Below the pieces are notes generated by a model that was not told the DNA's origin, made no database searches, and worked only from the letters and a program-made list of their open reading frames with translations. From contig JAJECB010000218.1 in the NCBI GenBank assembly GCA_022822245.1, forward strand, positions 1-14,041: DNA of 14,041 nt, given 5' to 3'. The translations under genes were made by a program, and so were the position numbers. Source of the DNA: Gammaproteobacteria bacterium (GTDB taxonomy: Bacteria > Pseudomonadota > Gammaproteobacteria > HK1). Positions 1,972-14,041 of this stretch are shown here, in pieces; position 1 is the stretch's first letter; each line of letters opens with the position of its first letter.

Positions 1972-3561
1972 ATGAGCGCGGCAACGACGCACGACGCGCA
2001 CCACGACGACCATCACCACCACGGCCCCGAGCCCGGCGTCCTCCGGTGGGTGTTCACCACCAACCACAAGGACATCGGAACGCTCTACCTCGTGTTCTCG
2101 TTCCTCATGCTCCTGCTCGGAGGCGTTCTCGCCCTCGGCATTCGCACCGAGCTGTGGTCCCCCGGCCTTCAGTTCGTGGAGCCGGACTTCTTCAACCAGT
2201 TGACCACCATGCACGCGCTGATCATGGTCTTCGGCGCGATCATGCCGGCCACCGTGGGCTTCGCGAACTGGATGGTTCCGATGATGATCGGGGCCCCCGA
2301 CATGGCCCTCCCGCGCCTGAACAACTGGAGCTTCTGGCTCCTCCCGTTCGCGTTCGCGCTCCTCATCTCCACGTTCTTCATGGAGGGCGGCGCCCCCGCG
2401 GCGGGCTGGACCCTCTATGCGCCGCTCGTCCTCCAGGGCGGGGCGAACCTTCCGTTCGCGATCTTCGCCATCCACCTGATGGGCATCGCTTCGGTGATGG
2501 GCGCCATCAACATCATCGTGACGATCCTGAACATGCGCGCCCCGGGCATGACCCTGCTGAAGATGCCCCTGTTCATCTGGACCTGGCTCATCACCGCGTT
2601 CCTGCTGGTCGCGGCCATGCCGGTGTTCGCGGGGGCGGTCACCATGCTGCTTACCGACAAGTTCTTCGGCACCACGTTCTTCGACGCCGCGGGGGGCGGC
2701 GACCCGGTCCTGTTCCAGCACATCTTCTGGTTCTTCGGGCACCCCGAGGTGTACATCATGATCCTGCCGTCGTTCGGGATCGTGTCCCAGGTCATCCCCA
2801 CCTTCGCTCGCAAGCCCCTCTTCGGCTACGAGTCCATGGTGTACGCCACCGCCTCGATCGCGTTCCTGTCGTTCATCGTGTGGGCCCACCACATGTTCAC
2901 CGTCGGGATGCCGCTCGCGGGCGAGCTCTTCTTCATGTACACGACGATGCTGATCGCGGTCCCGACCGGGGTGAAGGTCTTCAACTGGGTGGCGACGATG
3001 TGGCGGGGCTCGATGAGCTTCGAGACGCCCATGCTGTACGCGATCGCGTTCGTCATCCTGTTCACCCTCGGCGGGTTCTCGGGCCTGATGCTCGCGATCG
3101 TCCCCTCGGACTTCCAGTACCACGACACCTACTTCGTGGTGGCCCACTTCCACTACGTGCTGGTCACCGGTTCGCTGTTCGGGATCTACGCCGGGGTCTA
3201 CTACTGGCTGCCGAAGTGGACCGGCAACATGTACGACGAGCGGCTCGGCAAGTGGCACTTCTGGCTCTCCACCATCTTCGTCAACGTCCTGTTCTTCCCC
3301 CAGCACTTCCTCGGGCTGGCGGGGATGCCGCGGCGGATCCCGGACTACGCGGTGCAGTTCGCCGACTGGAACATGGTGTCGAGCATCGGGGCGTTCGGGT
3401 TCGGGCTCTCCCAGCTCCTGTTCGCCTGGATCGTGCTCAAGTGCTGCCGGGGCGGAAAGCGGGCGACGTCCGAGGTGTGGGACGGATCGGAGGGGCTCGA
3501 GTGGACGGTGGCTTCCCCCGCGCCGTACCACACGTTCGAGACCCCGCCGGTGGTCCGCTAG
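1972..3561 (+). CDS. coxA: Cytochrome c oxidase subunit I
   Basis: Catalytic subunit (ctaD), 529 residues, the usual length. It reduces oxygen to water and pumps protons. All metal ligands are visible: haem a by H81 and H394, haem a3 by H392, and CuB by H257 and the H306-H307 pair. HPEVY at 257-261 supplies the Tyr (Y261) that cross-links to a CuB His and the Glu (E259) of the D proton channel, marking a type A1 haem-copper oxidase. The protein is very hydrophobic, consistent with about 12 membrane helices. The ATG at 1972 has a perfect AGGAGG at 1957-1962, nine bases upstream, the best ribosome site in the operon, which fits a highly expressed subunit. Unusually, the N-terminal tail has seven His in residues 7-17. 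Confidence 0.98.
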   Translation: MSAATTHDAHHDDHHHHGPEPGVLRWVFTTNHKDIGTLYLVFSFLMLLLGGVLALGIRTELWSPGLQFVEPDFFNQLTTMHALIMVFGAIMPATVGFANWMVPMMIGAPDMALPRLNNWSFWLLPFAFALLISTFFMEGGAPAAGWTLYAPLVLQGGANLPFAIFAIHLMGIASVMGAINIIVTILNMRAPGMTLLKMPLFIWTWLITAFLLVAAMPVFAGAVTMLLTDKFFGTTFFDAAGGGDPVLFQHIFWFFGHPEVYIMILPSFGIVSQVIPTFARKPLFGYESMVYATASIAFLSFIVWAHHMFTVGMPLAGELFFMYTTMLIAVPTGVKVFNWVATMWRGSMSFETPMLYAIAFVILFTLGGFSGLMLAIVPSDFQYHDTYFVVAHFHYVLVTGSLFGIYAGVYYWLPKWTGNMYDERLGKWHFWLSTIFVNVLFFPQHFLGLAGMPRRIPDYAVQFADWNMVSSIGAFGFGLSQLLFAWIVLKCCRGGKRATSEVWDGSEGLEWTVASPAPYHTFETPPVVR

Positions 3562-6933: not shown

Positions 6934-7973
6934 TCCGACCCGACGTGCGCCCGGAGGGGCTGGCGGGGCGGATGCACGAGCGACGCTTCCGCCGGCTCGC
7001 TCTCGGGGTCACGGTCCTCGCGTTCGTGGTCGTCGTGCTCGGCGCGTGGGTGCGGCTCACCGGGGCGGGGCTCGGCTGCCCGGACTGGCCGGGCTGCTAC
7101 GGCCGGCTGGTGGTCGGCCCGGAGGGGTCCGGGCTCGGATCGACCGTCGAGGGCGCGGCGGTCGACGCAGGCAAGGCGTGGCGCGAGATGGTGCACCGCT
7201 ACTTCGCGGGCGCCCTCGGGCTCGCGATCCTGGCCCTCGCCGTCGCCGCCGTCCGCCACCGCCGCCGCGCGCCGGGGGCGGGCGGCCCGCTCGGGCTTCC
7301 CGTCGCCCTCGTCGTTCTCGTCGCGTTTCAGGCCGCGCTCGGCGCGTGGACCGTCACCCTCCGGCTGCAGCCGGCGGTGGTGGTCGCGCACCTCCTCGGG
7401 GGGATGGCGATACTCGGCCTGCTGTGGCGGCTGTACCTCGGCCCGCCGGTCCGCGCCGGGGGGTCCCGCCCGGAATGGGTGCGGCCCGCCGCCGCGATCG
7501 GGTTGGCGGTGCTTGCCATGCAGATCGCGCTTGGCGGCTGGACCAGCGCCAACTACGCGGCGCTCGCCTGCCCGGACTTTCCCACGTGTCACGGCCGGTG
7601 GTGGCCGGACGGGGACTACGCGGCCGGATTCCGGCTCTGGCAGGAGGCCGGTTCCCGCTCCGGCTTCGAGGGAGGGGTGCTCACCGTCGAGGCGCGGCTC
7701 GCCATCCACATGGTGCACCGCATCGGGGCGCTCGTCACCGTCCTCTACCTCGGGGGGCTTTGCGCGGCGGCGCTGTGGAGGGGAAGGCCGGATCGGAGCC
7801 TCGCCGCGGCGACCCTCTCGGTCCTCGGGCTGCTCGTCGTCCAGGCCGCGCTCGGAGTCTCGAACGTGTGGCTCGGATTGCCGCTCGGGGTGGCCGTCGC
7901 CCATAATGCGGCGGCAGCGCTTCTGCTCCTTGCGCTGGTCACGATGCATCACCGATCAAGCCGAAGACCATGA
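6930..7973 (+). CDS. ctaA: Haem A synthase (Cox15/CtaA family)
   Basis: Converts haem O to haem A by oxidising the C8 methyl group; 347 residues, integral membrane. About eight hydrophobic helices are visible in two similar halves. The four haem-ligand His are present at H89 (MVHRYFAG), H154 (AHLLGGM), H263 (MVHRIGALV) and H325 (AHNAAAALL). Both external loops carry a Cys pair: CPDWPGC (C50, C56) and CPDFPTC (C214, C220). The ATG at 6930 overlaps the preceding stop in ATGA form. An alternative ATG at 6972 removes 14 residues, starts closer to the first helix and has GGAGGGG about 12 bases upstream, so the true start may be there. The gene overlaps ctaB by four bases, matching their consecutive steps in haem A synthesis. 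Confidence 0.95.
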   Translation: MIRPDVRPEGLAGRMHERRFRRLALGVTVLAFVVVVLGAWVRLTGAGLGCPDWPGCYGRLVVGPEGSGLGSTVEGAAVDAGKAWREMVHRYFAGALGLAILALAVAAVRHRRRAPGAGGPLGLPVALVVLVAFQAALGAWTVTLRLQPAVVVAHLLGGMAILGLLWRLYLGPPVRAGGSRPEWVRPAAAIGLAVLAMQIALGGWTSANYAALACPDFPTCHGRWWPDGDYAAGFRLWQEAGSRSGFEGGVLTVEARLAIHMVHRIGALVTVLYLGGLCAAALWRGRPDRSLAAATLSVLGLLVVQAALGVSNVWLGLPLGVAVAHNAAAALLLLALVTMHHRSSRRP

Positions 7974-8896
7974 CCGTTCCTCGGGCGAGCGCCGCCGCGG
8001 CGGACTCGGGGCCCGTGCCGGTGCGGCACTATTGCACCGCCTACCTCGAGGTGTGCAAGCCGAAGATCGTGGTCACCATCGTCTTCACCGCGGTGGTCGG
8101 CATGTTCCTCGCGGTGCCGGGGATGGTGCCGGTCGGCATCCTCCTCGCCGGCGCCGCGGGCATTGGGCTCGGCGCGGCCGCCGGGGCCGCCTTCAACCAC
8201 GCGGTGGAGCGGCGCATCGACACGGCCATGGCCCGTACCCGGAACCGCCCGGTGGTGGCCGGCGTGCTCGCTCCCCGGTCCGTGACGGTGTTTGCCTGCA
8301 TCCTCGCGGCCGCCTCGGCCGGCGTGCTCCTCGCGTGGGTCAACTGGCTGACGGCCGCCCTGACCCTGGTCTCGACGACCGCCTACGCGGTGGTCTACAC
8401 GGTGTGGCTGAAGCCGGCCACGCCACAGAATATCGTCATCGGGGGGGCGGCCGGGGCGATGCCGCCCGTCATCGGGTGGGCCGCGGTGACCGGGGCGGTG
8501 GACCCGCACGCCCTGCTCCTCTTCCTCATCATCTTCGCCTGGACACCGCCCCACTTCTGGGCGCTCGCCATCCATCGGCGGAGCGACTATGCGGCGGCCG
8601 ACGTGCCCATGCTCCCGGTCACCCACGGGGTCGCGTTCACCCGGCTCCAGATCCTGCTCTATACCCTGCTGCTCCTCGTCGCGAGCGTGCTGCCCTACGT
8701 CACCCGCATGAGCGGGGTCGTCTATCTGGTGGGCGCGATCGTCTTCGGCGCGGGGTTCGTGTACTACGCGCTCGCGCTCATGTTCCGGGACGACCCGACG
8801 CTGCCCATGAAGACCTTCGGATATTCGATCGTGTACCTCTTCGGGATATTCGCCTGCCTGCTCGTGGATCACCATTTTCAGGTGGTGATGGTCTGA
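7970..8896 (+). CDS. ctaB: Protohaem IX farnesyltransferase (haem O synthase)
   Basis: UbiA-type prenyltransferase (Cox10, CyoE), 308 residues, which attaches a farnesyl group to haem B to give haem O. The prenyl-diphosphate binding signature is clear: N76 and D84 in the segment NHAVERRIDTAMARTRNRP. The second conserved loop, KPATPQNIVIGGAAGAMPP, follows further on. Multiple membrane helices fill the rest, as usual for the family. The start is the ATG at 7970, whose ATGA overlaps the ctaA stop. It is the last gene of the oxidase cluster on this strand; no canonical SCO gene follows it, as it does in some relatives. It ends about 95 bases from the stop of a gene on the opposite strand. Confidence 0.96.
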   Translation: MTVPRASAAAADSGPVPVRHYCTAYLEVCKPKIVVTIVFTAVVGMFLAVPGMVPVGILLAGAAGIGLGAAAGAAFNHAVERRIDTAMARTRNRPVVAGVLAPRSVTVFACILAAASAGVLLAWVNWLTAALTLVSTTAYAVVYTVWLKPATPQNIVIGGAAGAMPPVIGWAAVTGAVDPHALLLFLIIFAWTPPHFWALAIHRRSDYAAADVPMLPVTHGVAFTRLQILLYTLLLLVASVLPYVTRMSGVVYLVGAIVFGAGFVYYALALMFRDDPTLPMKTFGYSIVYLFGIFACLLVDHHFQVVMV

Positions 8897-8990: not shown

Positions 8991-9692
8991 CTACACGTTG
9001 TCGTCGACCTCCGCGCCCGCTCCGCGCGATCGCGATCGCTCGGTAGCGGGAACGAGGATCCGGGCCGCCGCTTCGCGGATCGCTCGCCAGTCGTCCATGC
9101 CAAGCCGGAGCCCGCGCGCAAGCGATGCGGCGTGGCGCGACTCGAGCTCCGGCGTCGCCAGCCGGGAGCGCGCCGGCGCTGGCGGGAGAGCGGTGGTGGG
9201 CGGACCCTCCGCCGCGATCAGGCGAACGTCGGCGGCATCGAGCTCCGCGAATGACCGGTCCAGGGTCGTCTCGCCCGCCGCGACGAGGGCCTCGCATCCT
9301 CCGGCCTCGAGCCGAAAGCTCCAGCCGTGACCGGCCTGGACCACCGCTTCGGGAAGGAGGACACGGGGGGTGCGGCAGCCCGCAAGGACGATCGCGGTGC
9401 CGGCGGCCAGCATCGCGGTCTCGATGAGGGTGCTGCCCCAGATGAGGACCGGACCGCCCGCGAGGTCCACCCGGTTGCCGGCGAAGCTCGGGGGTCGGTT
9501 CCCTGCTTCCGCCACCGCACCGAGCTCGGAGACGAGCGCGACCGCGCCGCGGAGCCCCCGCGATTCGAGCCAGACCGCCGAGCGCGCCCCGTCGCGCTCG
9601 GTGCCGGCCGGCGCCCCCGCTCCATGGAGGGCGCGGTTCGCGGCGGTGCGAAGCTCCGAGAGGGAGACGTGGACCCGTTCCGCCCCGTTCAC
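8991..9692 (-). CDS. DUF3726 family protein of unknown function
   Basis: A 233-residue protein that I match to DUF3726, a family without a known function. It has no signal peptide; the hydrophobic stretch around residues 80-105 (GGPVLIWGSTLIETAML) looks like a buried core rather than a membrane helix. The N-terminal LSELRTAANRALHGAG and the C-terminal LVPATERSR-x-GAGAEVDDN segment are the parts I recognise as typical. The region 160-190 is Pro/Ala-rich and probably a linker. The start is a GTG at 9690-9692 whose GTGA overlaps the stop of the upstream 551-residue gene, so the two are probably translated together and may act in one complex. A paired partner without catalytic motifs fits a subunit or assembly role, but this is a guess. 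Confidence 0.75.
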   Translation of the reverse strand: MNGAERVHVSLSELRTAANRALHGAGAPAGTERDGARSAVWLESRGLRGAVALVSELGAVAEAGNRPPSFAGNRVDLAGGPVLIWGSTLIETAMLAAGTAIVLAGCRTPRVLLPEAVVQAGHGWSFRLEAGGCEALVAAGETTLDRSFAELDAADVRLIAAEGPPTTALPPAPARSRLATPELESRHAASLARGLRLGMDDWRAIREAAARILVPATERSRSRGAGAEVDDNV

Positions 9693-11344
9693 GCGGTGCC
9701 GCCGCCGCCGGTCGTCGCGAATGCCCAGTCGTCCGCGCCGGGGCTCTCGAGCTCGTCCGCGAGCGGCGCGCCCTGGAAGAACGTCACCCGGGTCCAGAGG
9801 AGGGACTTCGGATCGAACCGGCTCGCCCCCAGCATCGACAGCTTGCAGCGCAGCAGGTCCACCGGCTCGCAGTCCCGGTCGAGCAGGTTCTCGTGGATCT
9901 CCGCGTAGGGGGCATCGTCGAGCGACTGGATGCGTCGCACGGCCTGGCGGAGCTCGGGGTTCGCAAGGAGGAAGCGGCCGACCGGCATCGCGGGGTCGGC
10001 GCGTTCGAGCGCACGGTGCAGGTCCGCCGCCTGGCGGGCGATCCCGAGGCGAAGCTCCCGGTCCGCCCCCGGCTCCTCGTAGCGGAACCCGAGCCTCGGC
10101 TCCTCCTTCTCCTTCGAGTAGTACCAGAAGAGCGCCCGGGACTCGGGCGGGTCGAAGTCCACCTCGAGCGCCCAGCCATAGCGGTCCTCGATCATCCGTC
10201 TCAGCGCCTCCACCGCCATCGCGGGCCGCACCTCCTCCCGCTCGTCCGAGCCGGCCGTCGTTTCGAGGTCGTCGACCCGGTCGGGGTACAGCTCGATGAG
10301 GAGGCTGTTCAGGAGTTCCCCGGTCTCCGCGTCGTCGCCCGCCCAGTCGGCGAGCGCGGCCCAGGGCCGGCGGCCGGCGAGGAGGATCGGGTCGCCGCCC
10401 GGGCCGACCAGGCGTTCGAGCTCTGCAAGGCGCCGGCCGGCGGTTGCGAGTCGCCGCCCGAGGGTCTCGTCGCCCACCTGCGCCCGCCACTCGTCGACGT
10501 GGGTGCGGGCGCGGGCGAGGAGGGTCCGGAACCGCGCTCGCTCCGGCGGATCGGCCCGCTCGACCTCCTTCACCCGGGCAAGGGCGATCTCGCGCATCCG
10601 GATCCAGCGCCCGATGAGTTGCGGGCGGTTGATGAGGAACGGAGCCATCCCGAGACCGGTCGCGTTGCCGACCCCGAGCGCCCGGCGCCGCGACCGGTCG
10701 AGGGCCGCCGCCCGGCGCCCCCCGCGCCGCGCCGCGAGGTGGTCCACCAGCTCCAGGCTGAAGTGCCGGGCGAGGTACACGGTGAGCATCTCCGCCTGGA
10801 AGGGCAGGGTGAGGATCCCCCTCCGACGGACCTGCTCGAAGTCCGCGAGCCCGAACTTCCCGTTGCCGTAGACGGCGGTCGTTCGCATCAGGTAGCCGAC
10901 GCGGCCGATCGCGTCGCGCGAAGGCTGGCGGCCGGCCGCGAGGGCGGTCACCACGTCGTCGAAGAGTCGCACGCTCCGATTGGCGCGGCTGAGCACGATC
11001 TCCCCCGCCCCGCAACGCCCCGCCTCCTGGCGCGGCACGTTGTCCTCGAGGCGTTCGAGATCGGCCGGGGCCGGCGGCTCCAGGGTGAGGGCGAAGCTCG
11101 CGTCCCAGCGCTCGGCGATGACCCGGTCGGTCCGGTCCGCGGGGTCGAGATGGTGCGAGAACGCCGCGAAACCGAGCACCCCGGCCGGCGTGTGCACGTG
11201 GTAGGCCACGCGACCGTAGCCGTCGTCGTCGAGGTCGCGGAGGGCGGTCTCGATGCACCAGCCCTCCCGGGCCATGCGGCGGACGAGGGTCCGGGCGAAG
11301 CTGAGGCGGGTCGGATGGAACCGGCCGAGCCGGGAGAGCCGCAT
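9689..11344 (-). CDS. Conserved uncharacterised 551-residue protein, partner of DUF3726
   Basis: I cannot name a function. The protein is soluble in appearance, with no signal peptide or membrane helix, and rich in Arg, Glu and Leu. I recall similar proteins beside DUF3726 genes in other proteobacteria, but cannot confirm this here. Segments that look conserved are NVPRQEAGR (102-110), SRANRSVRLFDD (119-130), RTTAVYGNGKFG (154-165), FQAEMLTVY (182-190) and the Gly-rich GVGNATGLGMAPFL (224-237). The C-terminal part has FWYYSKEKEEPRLGFRYEEP and LRCKLSMLGASRFDP. No P-loop, nucleotide-binding fold or metal motif is obvious. The start is uncertain: I chose the ATG at 11344, just before the segment RLSFARTLVRRM. 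In-frame GTGs at 11347, 11395 and 11407 are possible (the last gives 572 residues), and none has a well-spaced ribosome site. The stop overlaps the DUF3726 start. Confidence 0.65.
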   Translation of the reverse strand: MRLSRLGRFHPTRLSFARTLVRRMAREGWCIETALRDLDDDGYGRVAYHVHTPAGVLGFAAFSHHLDPADRTDRVIAERWDASFALTLEPPAPADLERLEDNVPRQEAGRCGAGEIVLSRANRSVRLFDDVVTALAAGRQPSRDAIGRVGYLMRTTAVYGNGKFGLADFEQVRRRGILTLPFQAEMLTVYLARHFSLELVDHLAARRGGRRAAALDRSRRRALGVGNATGLGMAPFLINRPQLIGRWIRMREIALARVKEVERADPPERARFRTLLARARTHVDEWRAQVGDETLGRRLATAGRRLAELERLVGPGGDPILLAGRRPWAALADWAGDDAETGELLNSLLIELYPDRVDDLETTAGSDEREEVRPAMAVEALRRMIEDRYGWALEVDFDPPESRALFWYYSKEKEEPRLGFRYEEPGADRELRLGIARQAADLHRALERADPAMPVGRFLLANPELRQAVRRIQSLDDAPYAEIHENLLDRDCEPVDLLRCKLSMLGASRFDPKSLLWTRVTFFQGAPLADELESPGADDWAFATTGGGGTA

Positions 11345-11428
11345 CACCTCGCCGGGTGGCCGAATCGTCGCAGGCGTCGGGTTCGTGTCTCTCACCCCGT
11401 GGCTCACGCTCGCGATGCACCGTAACGG

Positions 11429-11492: not shown

Positions 11493-12599
11493 TCAGCCGC
11501 GGACCTTCGACGCGATGAGGTAGCAGTGCACGTAGTCCATGGCGTGGCCGTGCGGCGCCTCGCGGACCCTCGCCTCGTAGCGATCGTAGAAGCGGTCGAG
11601 GATGGCCGTGCGTTCCTCCGCCGGCCGGTCGGCCGAGAGACCGCTCGCGAACGCGGACTCGCTCCACGAGCGCAGGGTCGGGATGTACTCGCGGGCGAAC
11701 TTCGCCGGATCGCCGTGCTCCTCGAAGTGGGCCTCGAACGGGCACCGCACCACCCGCGTCTCCGCGTGTTCGAGCCGCAGGCCCGCCCGGTGCACGGGGT
11801 TGGCCGGGTCCCGGAACGGCCGGGTGAACTCTTCCACCGTGCGGTAATGCTGGGGGAAGTTGGTGTCGACGTACTCGTCCGGGGTGATCGACCCTTCGTC
11901 GCGGAGCTCTTCCCAGAGCGCGTTGAAGGTGTCGAACATGCTGATCCCGCCCGTGTTTCCGAGATAGCGCCCCTCCTCGTCGATCCCGAAGTTGAAAAGG
12001 GCGAGTCGCCCCCCGGGGGCGAGCTCGCGCGCCCGGTGGAGCAGCATCGCCTCCCAGTCGCGGCGGCCCTGCTCGGCGTAGGCGTCCCGCTCCGCGCCGG
12101 CCGCCCCGACCATGTGCACGTGGTTCGCGATCCTCGCCGGCTTCTCGCTCAGGTAGTGCGACGCGGTGGCCGAGAACCCGAGGTGGAGGGTTCCGGGCGG
12201 AAGGATCGGGCGGTGAAACGAGGTTCCCGAGGCGAAGACGTGGAGGTTGTCGATCTCGTCGTGGTACGAAACGACGTCGGTGAGGCCGAGGACGTTGCGA
12301 AAGACCTGGCTGAAGTCGTTGCGGGGGAGGTCGGTGTAGACCATCTGAATCGGCCGCGAAGGGATGCGCCGGCGCACCGCCTTCAGCACCGTGCCGACCA
12401 TCGTCATCGAGGTGCCGGCGTCGGCGCAGCCCATGTCCGACATCGTGAAGATCGAGCCGTCGTCGGGCGGGCTCATGTCTTCGATGCTGTCGAGGATGAG
12501 GGGGGTGGCGCCGTCGATGACGTGCTTCGCGCCGATCGTCGCGCGGGAGTAGTACCCGCCGCCCTTCATGGCGATGTCGCGGGCGGTGCTGACCGTCAT
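11493..12599 (-). CDS. SABATH-family SAM-dependent carboxyl methyltransferase homologue
   Basis: A 368-residue protein with the layout of SABATH methyltransferases, known mainly from plants for methylating the carboxyl groups of salicylate, jasmonate and other small acids. Visible signatures are MKGGGYYS (11-18), the SAM-binding loop MSDMGCADAGTS (53-64), TDLPRNDFSQVF (89-100) and the segment GTSFHRPILPPGTLHLGFS (125-143) ahead of SHYLS. The plant Trp that helps hold the substrate carboxylate aligns by eye with Y149, and the plant Gln near K25/H26 also seems replaced, so the substrate is probably different. The start ATG has GGAG eight bases upstream; M11 is an alternative. It is the first gene of a possible three-gene - strand unit with the 551-residue and DUF3726 genes. 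The family call is good; the substrate is unknown. Confidence 0.82.
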   Translation of the reverse strand: MTVSTARDIAMKGGGYYSRATIGAKHVIDGATPLILDSIEDMSPPDDGSIFTMSDMGCADAGTSMTMVGTVLKAVRRRIPSRPIQMVYTDLPRNDFSQVFRNVLGLTDVVSYHDEIDNLHVFASGTSFHRPILPPGTLHLGFSATASHYLSEKPARIANHVHMVGAAGAERDAYAEQGRRDWEAMLLHRARELAPGGRLALFNFGIDEEGRYLGNTGGISMFDTFNALWEELRDEGSITPDEYVDTNFPQHYRTVEEFTRPFRDPANPVHRAGLRLEHAETRVVRCPFEAHFEEHGDPAKFAREYIPTLRSWSESAFASGLSADRPAEERTAILDRFYDRYEARVREAPHGHAMDYVHCYLIASKVRG

Positions 12600-12770: not shown

Positions 12771-13619
12771 TCAGATTTCGATCCGGCCCCGCAGCTTCTT
12801 CATGGCGTTCTTCTCGATCTGCCGGATCCGCTCCGCCGACACGCCGTATTCGTCGGCGAGCTCCTGGAGGGTCGACTTCTCCTCCTGGAGCCACCGCCGG
12901 GTCAGGATGGACCGGCTGCGATCGTCGAGGGTCTCCAGGGCTTCGTAGAGCGAGCGGGTCGACCTCGCTTCCCACTCCTCGGCCTCCACCTGCTGCTCGG
13001 GCTCGAACCGGCGATCCTCGATCCACCCGGAGGGGGCGGCCACGTCGCCGTCGGCGTCGACCGGCAGATCGAAGGGGGTGTCGCGGGCGTGAAGCCGCTG
13101 CTCCATCTCGAGCACGGTGCGCGACGGCACGCCGAGATCCGCCGCGACCTCTTCCACCTCCTGGTGGTTCATCCAGCCAAGGCGCTTCTTGGCGCTGCGC
13201 AGGTTGAAGAAGAGCTTGCGCTGGGCCTTGGTGGTCGCGACCTTGACGATGCGCCAGTTGCGCAGGATGTACTCGTGGATCTCGGCCCGGATCCAGTGGA
13301 CCGCGAAGGAGACGAGACGAACGCCCAAGGTCGGGTCGAAGCGCTTGACCGCCTTCATGAGCCCGACGTTGCCTTCCTGGATGAGGTCGGCCTGAGGCAG
13401 GCCGTAGCCGGAGTACCCGCGGGCGACGCGGGCAACGAAGCGAAGATGCGAGAGAACGAGTCCCCGAGCCGCTTCCAGGTCCTCGTGGTCGCGGAACTGC
13501 TCGGCGAGGTGCCGCTCCTCGTCCTCGGAGAGCATGGGAATGGTGTGCACCGCCTGGAGGTACGCCTCGAGGCTGCCCCCCGACGGGACTGCGAGCGAGA
13601 GTTCCAGTGCTTTGCCCAT
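12771..13619 (-). CDS. rpoH: RNA polymerase sigma factor RpoH (sigma-32)
   Basis: Heat-shock sigma factor, 282 residues, the usual size. Region 2 shows [18 protein letters not shown] (79-96) and the DNA-melting segment [19 protein letters not shown] (104-122). The RpoH box, QRKLFFNLR at 133-141, separates it from other sigma-70 proteins and marks the region of core-polymerase binding and turnover control. Region 4.2, with the helix-turn-helix [27 protein letters not shown], ends the protein. The ATG at 13617-13619 has an AGAGG ribosome site 12 bases upstream, rather far, which may favour regulated translation. A CIRCE operator overlapping a predicted promoter lies 43 bases upstream, so HrcA repression is expected on top of any control of RpoH stability. 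The neighbours here are unrelated genes: the methyltransferase downstream and a chaC-like gene upstream. Confidence 0.97.
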
Positions 13620-13659
13620 GGCGTTGATTTGCCTCTGGTCTGATGAGTGCGTGGAGCGG

Positions 13660-13689
13660 AGTTTAGCACTCTCCCCGAGAGAGTGCCAA
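13660..13689 (-). promoter_or_regulatory. Predicted sigma-70 promoter of rpoH
   Basis: On the - strand TTGGCA (13684-13689, five of six consensus bases) and TAAACT (13660-13665, four of six) are spaced by 18 bases, and TG one base before the -10 gives an extended -10 element. The expected start site is near 13653, leaving a leader of about 33 bases before the rpoH ATG. Both hexamers overlap the arms of the CIRCE repeat. Confidence 0.7.
13663..13689. promoter_or_regulatory. CIRCE operator (HrcA binding site) upstream of rpoH
   Basis: The inverted repeat TTAGCACTC-N9-GAGTGCCAA matches the CIRCE consensus TTAGCACTC-N9-GAGTGCTAA at 17 of 18 arm positions, with the exact nine-base spacer. CIRCE is the binding site of the repressor HrcA, usually found before groESL, dnaK or hrcA. 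Here it lies 43 bases before rpoH and covers the predicted promoter, so bound HrcA should block RNA polymerase. No hrcA gene is in the window. Confidence 0.92.
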
Positions 13690-13740
13690 TCTCGGTCCGT
13701 TACGGAAGGTGAACCCGCGCGCCCCGGTCGACCTGCAAAG

Positions 13741-13773
13741 GCGGCGCCCTCCTCAGCGACGATCGGGCGCCGC
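13741..13773 (-). terminator. Possible weak terminator at the end of the chaC-like gene
   Basis: A perfect 9-base inverted repeat, GCGGCGCCC / GGGCGCCGC, with a 15-base loop spans the stop codon of the chaC-like gene. On the - strand the stem is followed only by CTTTG rather than a real T-tract. It may slow or end transcription before rpoH, but as an intrinsic terminator it is weak. Confidence 0.35.
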
Positions 13774-14041
13774 GCCCCGCACGCTCCGCTCGATCTCGAA
13801 GACGTGGGGGTCGTCGATGCCGTGTCCGCGAAGCGCGTCGGCGAGGCGGAGCACGTAGTCGAGGTTGGTCCCGCTTGGGCCCTCGCAGCGCGCGATCTGG
13901 GCCGCCATCGCCTCGAGCGGCGCCGGCCCGAGGAACGCGTGGTTGTCCCGCGGGGCGATGTAGACGCAGCCTTCGGTCGAGCGGCCGTCGCGAAACCGGA
14001 GGGTGACGGGTGTCAGCCCGTAGCCGTTCTTCTCGCGGTGG
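13753..14041 (-). CDS. ChaC-like gamma-glutamylcyclotransferase, C-terminal part (cut by window edge)
   Basis: The last 96 codons of a gene whose 5' part lies beyond position 14041. Visible segments are [19 protein letters not shown], then [22 protein letters not shown] and the end [14 protein letters not shown]. These match the C-terminal half of the ChaC family, with its typical YxGPAP and GxSGxNxxYLLRLA pattern. ChaC enzymes cleave glutathione or other gamma-glutamyl peptides to 5-oxoproline and an amino acid in the cytoplasm. The catalytic Glu and the N-terminal YGSL-type motif are not in view, so activity cannot be judged. The gene runs in the same direction as rpoH, which has its own promoter in the 133-base gap between them. 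Confidence 0.8.

Follow-up and report, generated by a model that had tools for sequence, protein, structure and literature searches.

The window, the whole stretch of 14,041 nucleotides analysed here, carries on its minus strand an rpoH gene whose predicted promoter is overlaid by a CIRCE element. The encoded protein scores 407.3 bits against TIGR02392 (cut-off 323.1) and 431.7 bits against NF005143, and contains Sigma70 regions 1.2, 2 and 4. The features of the locus, in the direction of rpoH transcription, are as follows.

13753..14041, minus strand: 3′ end of a chaC-like gene (PF04752, E 3.8e-18), cut by the window end; flanking, outside the switch
13684..13689, minus strand: sigma-70-type −35 hexamer TTGGCA, within one CIRCE arm, from the promoter scan
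13663..13689, no strand assigned: CIRCE operator, predicted HrcA site, TTAGCACTC-N9-GAGTGCCAA as read on the plus strand, with 1 mismatch
13660..13668, minus strand: extended −10 TGCTAAACT (hexamer at 13660–13665), six bases common with the other CIRCE arm and three beyond it
13620..13652, minus strand: predicted untranslated leader of about 33 nt, its start placed from the −10
12771..13619, minus strand: rpoH, heat-shock sigma factor RpoH (sigma-32), 282 aa (TIGR02392, NF005143)

Downstream of rpoH, on the same strand, lies a gene for a SAM-dependent carboxyl methyltransferase (11493–12599; PF03492, E 1.7e-31), a family that we take to be mostly plant. The gene adjoining it (9689–11407, minus strand) matched nothing in Pfam or NCBIfam at E 0.001. 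The plus strand encodes cytochrome c oxidase subunit I (1972–3561) and heme o synthase (7970–8896); by eye, both seem to belong to a cox assembly cluster that converges on the rpoH group. That the CIRCE controls a divergent gene was ruled out, since the chaC-like gene upstream shares its strand with rpoH.

A CIRCE is a 9-9-9 inverted repeat close to TTAGCACTC-N9-GAGTGCTAA. The window element reads TTAGCACTC-TCCCCGAGA-GAGTGCCAA on the plus strand, one mismatch from this consensus, and is the sole match in the window at ≤3 mismatches. A chance origin was ruled out, as none of 200 shuffled sequences contained a match. Over the same bases, the minus strand reads TTGGCA-N18-TAAACT, which has nine of the 12 consensus bases and a TG preceding the −10. 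This is the only sigma-70-like promoter found between 13500 and 13800 by a scan that covers sigma-70 types only. The first-pass annotation had placed a CIRCE, one mismatch from consensus, over a predicted rpoH promoter, with the −35 inside one arm and the extended −10 touching the other, and both the shuffles and the promoter scan bear this out. In a stress gene under HrcA, the operator is expected to overlap the promoter or the start; the window element overlaps the predicted promoter of rpoH. The CIRCE lies 43 bases from the rpoH start, and the leader length of about 33 nt assumes that transcription begins some 7 bases after the −10.

The closest genome compared, G001, shares 44% of the window's 31-letter words, and its RpoH is 98% identical; by these measures the window probably belongs to the genus of G001. 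HrcA (PF01628) is encoded in 30 of 38 relatives and in all 17 genomes of the same family, G001, G002 and G003 included, and the window's own genome is therefore expected to carry hrcA as well. G001, G002 and G003 each contain exactly two CIRCEs (≤3 mismatches), one before groES and one before rpoH, so that HrcA would reach the other heat-shock genes only via RpoH. At the two hrcA loci examined (G001 and G002), no CIRCE was found at ≤4 mismatches; in both genomes, hrcA lies approximately 1 kb upstream of dnaK. When the window is aligned with G001–G003, conservation covers the CIRCE arms and the −10, and most of what lies further upstream diverges. Of the checks proposed with the first-pass annotation, those made by genome comparison turned out in its favour: hrcA is present throughout the nearest family, the repeat and the −10 are kept before rpoH in the nearest relatives, and the other CIRCE sites of these genomes are confined to groES, as its proposed cascade from HrcA through RpoH needs. 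Across the window's family, a CIRCE (≤3 mismatches) precedes rpoH in 12 of the 16 genomes with an RpoH match, and G011 has one at 4 mismatches. None was found before rpoH in G006, G007 and G017, the rpoH of G007 being on a short contig.

The distribution of the arrangement was surveyed in 158 evenly sampled genomes of Gammaproteobacteria (≥90% complete), with RpoH in 148 and HrcA in 115, a CIRCE being called at ≤3 mismatches within 400 bp upstream of rpoH. The sample holds 149 rpoH copies in 148 genomes; one copy (L260, from the hrcA-positive G166) had no usable alignment and was dropped, leaving 148. A CIRCE precedes rpoH in 98 of 108 copies from hrcA-positive genomes, leaving ten without, compared with 5 of 40 copies from hrcA-negative genomes (Fisher P 1.2e-19, a value that overstates independence because the genomes share ancestry). 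The two classes are well separated, as all 45 copies scored without a CIRCE have at least six mismatches. The hrcA-positive part of the survey spans 93 families, in a table compiled by hand, and the median distance from CIRCE to predicted rpoH start codon is 43 bases (range 11–193). A CIRCE before rpoH is thus the common state in hrcA-positive Gammaproteobacteria, and the view that the arrangement is unusual does not hold, the more so as it was already predicted in Geobacter sulfurreducens in 2004 (PMC545781).

By the same rule, 19 of 80 named rpoH loci have the element, counted irrespective of hrcA status, and many of the loci without it belong to Pseudomonas, Halomonas or Marinobacter. In Pseudomonadota other than Gammaproteobacteria, counted likewise irrespective of hrcA, a CIRCE at ≤3 mismatches was found before one of 40 rpoH copies, with one more at 4 mismatches (38 genomes, chosen to cover 29 families among the matches listed). 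The five CIRCE-bearing copies in genomes where HrcA was not found (L133 in G100, L164 in G084, L180 in G129, L232 in G033 and L234 in G136) could possibly be explained by gaps in the assemblies, by hrcA having been lost recently or by a different reader of the site. A CIRCE without any mismatch is present at the Ketobacter locus L007. Two rpoH-like copies, one with and the other without a CIRCE, occur in a single Thiotrichaceae assembly (JALXAQ01; L009 and L060) and in G049 (L148 and L203), where a division of labour is possible. One rpoH is preceded by two tandem CIRCEs (L123 in G027, at 2068–2094 and 2100–2126), and L025 likewise has a second copy, with 3 mismatches.

Comparison of the surveyed sites revealed a composite layout in which the CIRCE is interleaved with promoter elements of two kinds. 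A sigma-E −35 element, GGAACTT, is followed after 9 bp by the CIRCE, whose left arm gives the sigma-E −10 (TCnnA) and whose right arm completes an extended sigma-70 −10, TGCTAAAAT. Outside the operator, three bases past the CIRCE, 92 of 103 rpoH sites have a T, which gives the extended −10 TGCTAA-A-A-T. The same base is T in only one of 28 groES sites (CIRCEs assigned by protein motif) and in two of four hrcA sites (L302 was left out of the latter, as it is the rpoH site of G157). Because a −10 would need this T and an operator would not, its prevalence argues for reading the right-hand side as a promoter −10.

Sigma-E promoters have the form GGAACTT-N16-TCnnA. GAAC, the core of GGAACTT, is found 8, 9 or 10 bases before the CIRCE in 67 of the 103 rpoH sites, 54 of them at a gap of 9, against a mean of 0.6 sites at other offsets; before the 28 groES CIRCEs, no xGAACxx was found at gaps of 8–10. 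A gap of 9 and the first seven CIRCE bases together make 16, and the bases that follow are TC in all 103 rpoH sites. Two bases beyond the TC stands an A in 62 of 67 rpoH sites with the box, compared with 17 of the 36 that lack it and 5 of 28 groES sites, so that GAAC at gap 8–10 and TCnnA occur together in 62 of the 103 surveyed sites. Searched at ≤1 mismatch, the three-part pattern is present in 147 of 370 genomes, and its reversed counterpart gave none among the matches listed. Examples of the three-part pattern lay upstream of rpoH in 28 of the 30 cases examined; the exceptions are L282, whose 1598-base stretch contains no rpoH, and L298, where rpoH has no CIRCE in the preceding 300 bp. Matches on contigs other than that of rpoH occur in G081 (C8, 47854–47898) and G101 (C56, 101975–102019), and one of two matches in G077 (C77) adjoins hrcA, off the rpoH contig.

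The sigma-E part of the layout follows the presence of rpoE. RpoE, called where TIGR02939 scored over its cut-off, is encoded in 110 of the 158 genomes of the even sample. In rpoE-positive genomes, 67 of 89 rpoH-CIRCE sites have the box (the other 22 lack it at gap 8–10), compared with none of 14 in the rest (P 5.5e-8, which again overstates independence, as the genomes share ancestry). Among these 14 rpoE-negative sites, 13 come from genomes without a match at E 1e-40, and the remaining one (G130) from a genome with a match below cut-off. A wider search of the 250 bp upstream gave the same picture. Where a CIRCE is present, a sigma-E-like promoter was found in 75 of 89 rpoE-positive and 0 of 14 rpoE-negative cases (1.9 and 0.3 in shuffles); where it is absent, the counts were 9 of 17 and 1 of 28 (0.2 and 0.5 in shuffles). 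In the window's family, the box was seen by eye in six of the seven genomes that combine a CIRCE at ≤3 mismatches with RpoE over cut-off (G008, G009, G012, G013, G014 and G015, but not G016), and it is missing in G011, whose CIRCE has 4 mismatches, and in G004, whose RpoE is below cut-off.

The window itself has no such box: a search for a sigma-E promoter (GGAACTT, approximately 16 bp, TCnnA) found no GAAC at a gap of 8–10, and the −10 place reads TCTCG. No RpoE match, at E up to 1e-30, was found in G001, G002, G003 and G005, and the same four lack the box. The co-occurrence of box and rpoE supports the sigma-E reading and would explain the window as a reduced form: its genus seems to have lost both sigma-E and the box, so that what remains is a sigma-70 promoter controlled by HrcA. 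Since the nearest relatives have hrcA and no RpoE match, and the window has no box, HrcA is probably the main transcriptional input of the window rpoH. A TAACGG-like stretch (window positions ~13696–13702), present in G001 and G003 as well but absent from G002, sits near the position of the lost box.

We therefore read the element as an HrcA operator placed on the rpoH promoter, through which HrcA would repress rpoH until GroEL is occupied, and put the probability of this reading at roughly 0.83. The observations behind it are the sequence of the element, its position, its conservation and its co-occurrence with hrcA and rpoE. From these we infer HrcA binding, repression, the link to GroEL and the order of events that follows. 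The dependence of HrcA activity on GroEL comes from Bacillus subtilis. Free GroEL would keep HrcA active, and HrcA, covering the promoter, would hold rpoH transcription low by steric repression. Once misfolded protein occupies GroEL, HrcA would lose activity, groESL and rpoH would be released, and the RpoH made would drive the other heat-shock genes. Most rpoE-positive relatives also have the sigma-E −10 inside the CIRCE, and there HrcA would control entry into rpoH by sigma-70 and by sigma-E alike. If HrcA and RpoH both act on groESL, a coherent feed-forward loop may result.

The rpoH thermometer of E. coli draws mostly on the beginning of the coding region, where temperature-dependent pairing masks the start codon. 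The first-pass suggestion that the short leader leaves little room for such a thermometer is consequently not supported. In single-sequence folding at 37 °C, the ribosome site has a mean unpaired value of 0.50 in the window rpoH and 0.21 in E. coli, and the same method shows little change of openness with temperature in either gene, so that it did not discriminate for or against a thermometer in the window, which HrcA might replace. These values bear on the possibility that HrcA binds but acts as a minor brake, with rpoH output set mainly after transcription, through translation and through control by DnaK and FtsH, as in E. coli. That possibility has a precedent, given that heat control of sigma-32 in E. 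coli is mostly translational and post-translational, and the window RpoH retains a QRKLFFNLR stretch, presumably the RpoH box. We nevertheless regard it as rather unlikely, as the predicted ribosome site is no more closed than that of E. coli and the co-occurrence of CIRCE and hrcA across roughly ninety families implies that the effect of the site has been under selection, though it does not show how large that effect is.

It is less likely still that the main promoter lies further upstream, with the sigma-70 promoter at the CIRCE in a secondary role. Several promoters serve rpoH in E. coli. One of them is the sigma-E-dependent P3 (PMC8103513). In some relatives, a sigma-E-like promoter lies, by eye, wholly upstream of the CIRCE, and the unexplained TAACGG-like sequence that the window, G001 and G003 share some 7 bp ahead of the CIRCE is a further point in favour. 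Against this, the sigma-70-type scan found a single promoter-like site in 13500–13800 of the window, and the genus conserves little else upstream. Being GC-rich, inverted and set between two same-strand genes, the repeat might also terminate transcription of the upstream chaC-like gene or form a hairpin in the mRNA rather than serve as an HrcA operator, and part of the 9-base spacer in the window is itself self-complementary. We rejected this explanation as highly improbable, because no T run follows the repeat and no terminator-like site was found by scan in 13500–13800; moreover, the arms fit the CIRCE consensus and not merely each other, and the presence of the repeat tracks hrcA.

We consider it fairly probable that the ancestral gammaproteobacterial rpoH promoter had three inputs, with a CIRCE interleaved with a sigma-E promoter (TC in the left arm) and a sigma-70 extended −10 (TGCTAA in the right arm), and GroEL–HrcA gating both envelope-stress and housekeeping entry. 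E. coli would then be the derived case, a remnant in which the sigma-E spacing outlived HrcA, and the window's genus the opposite reduction, with HrcA kept and sigma-E lost. The textbook account of heat-shock control of rpoH derives from E. coli. If most hrcA-keeping gammaproteobacterial families put rpoH under HrcA, the master sigma factor would be tied through transcription to GroEL as the sensor of folding, and rpoH control as seen in E. coli would be a special case. The composite site would also offer a clean test of one repressor gating two sigma factors at once.

A close known counterpart within Gammaproteobacteria is the groESL CIRCE, which has the same operator and the same predicted repressor as the rpoH CIRCE. 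The groES CIRCEs differ in their setting, as they directly follow a CTTGAC...TAT(T)A promoter (the CC.TAT element; 28 sites), with a sigma-E box in 0 of 28 and T at +3 in 1 of 28; by consensus, we take this element to be compatible with both sigma-70 and sigma-32 use. E. coli has, to our knowledge, no HrcA, and no HrcA match was found in it as one of 14 control genomes, whereas the window's genus has the CIRCE and no sigma-E box. Upstream of rpoH, E. coli K-12 (L332) carries TGAACTT-N16-TCTGA, which we take to be rpoH P3, and its spacing equals that of GGAACTT-N9-TTAGCAC-TCnnA in the CIRCE sites. Transcription by sigma-E is established for rpoH P3 of E. coli (PMC8103513) and for rpoH of Pseudomonas aeruginosa (PMC13104619).

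A CIRCE before rpoH is not new in kind, having been predicted upstream of rpoH (listed at −51) in G. sulfurreducens by Rodionov et al. (2004; PMC545781). Among the openly licensed matches listed, no report was found of its gammaproteobacterial breadth or of the interleaving with sigma-E elements, part of which may be contained in Permina and Gelfand (2003), Ueki and Lovley (2007) or RegPrecise. Like the window's nearest relatives, G. sulfurreducens combines a CIRCE upstream of rpoH with groESL as a further predicted HrcA target (PMC545781). That case is a prediction in one delta-proteobacterium, and the accessible text of the report does not mention promoter overlap at rpoH (PMC545781). In Gammaproteobacteria, by contrast, CIRCE and rpoH are frequently linked, and the operator is merged with promoter elements for sigma-70 and, in many cases, for sigma-E.
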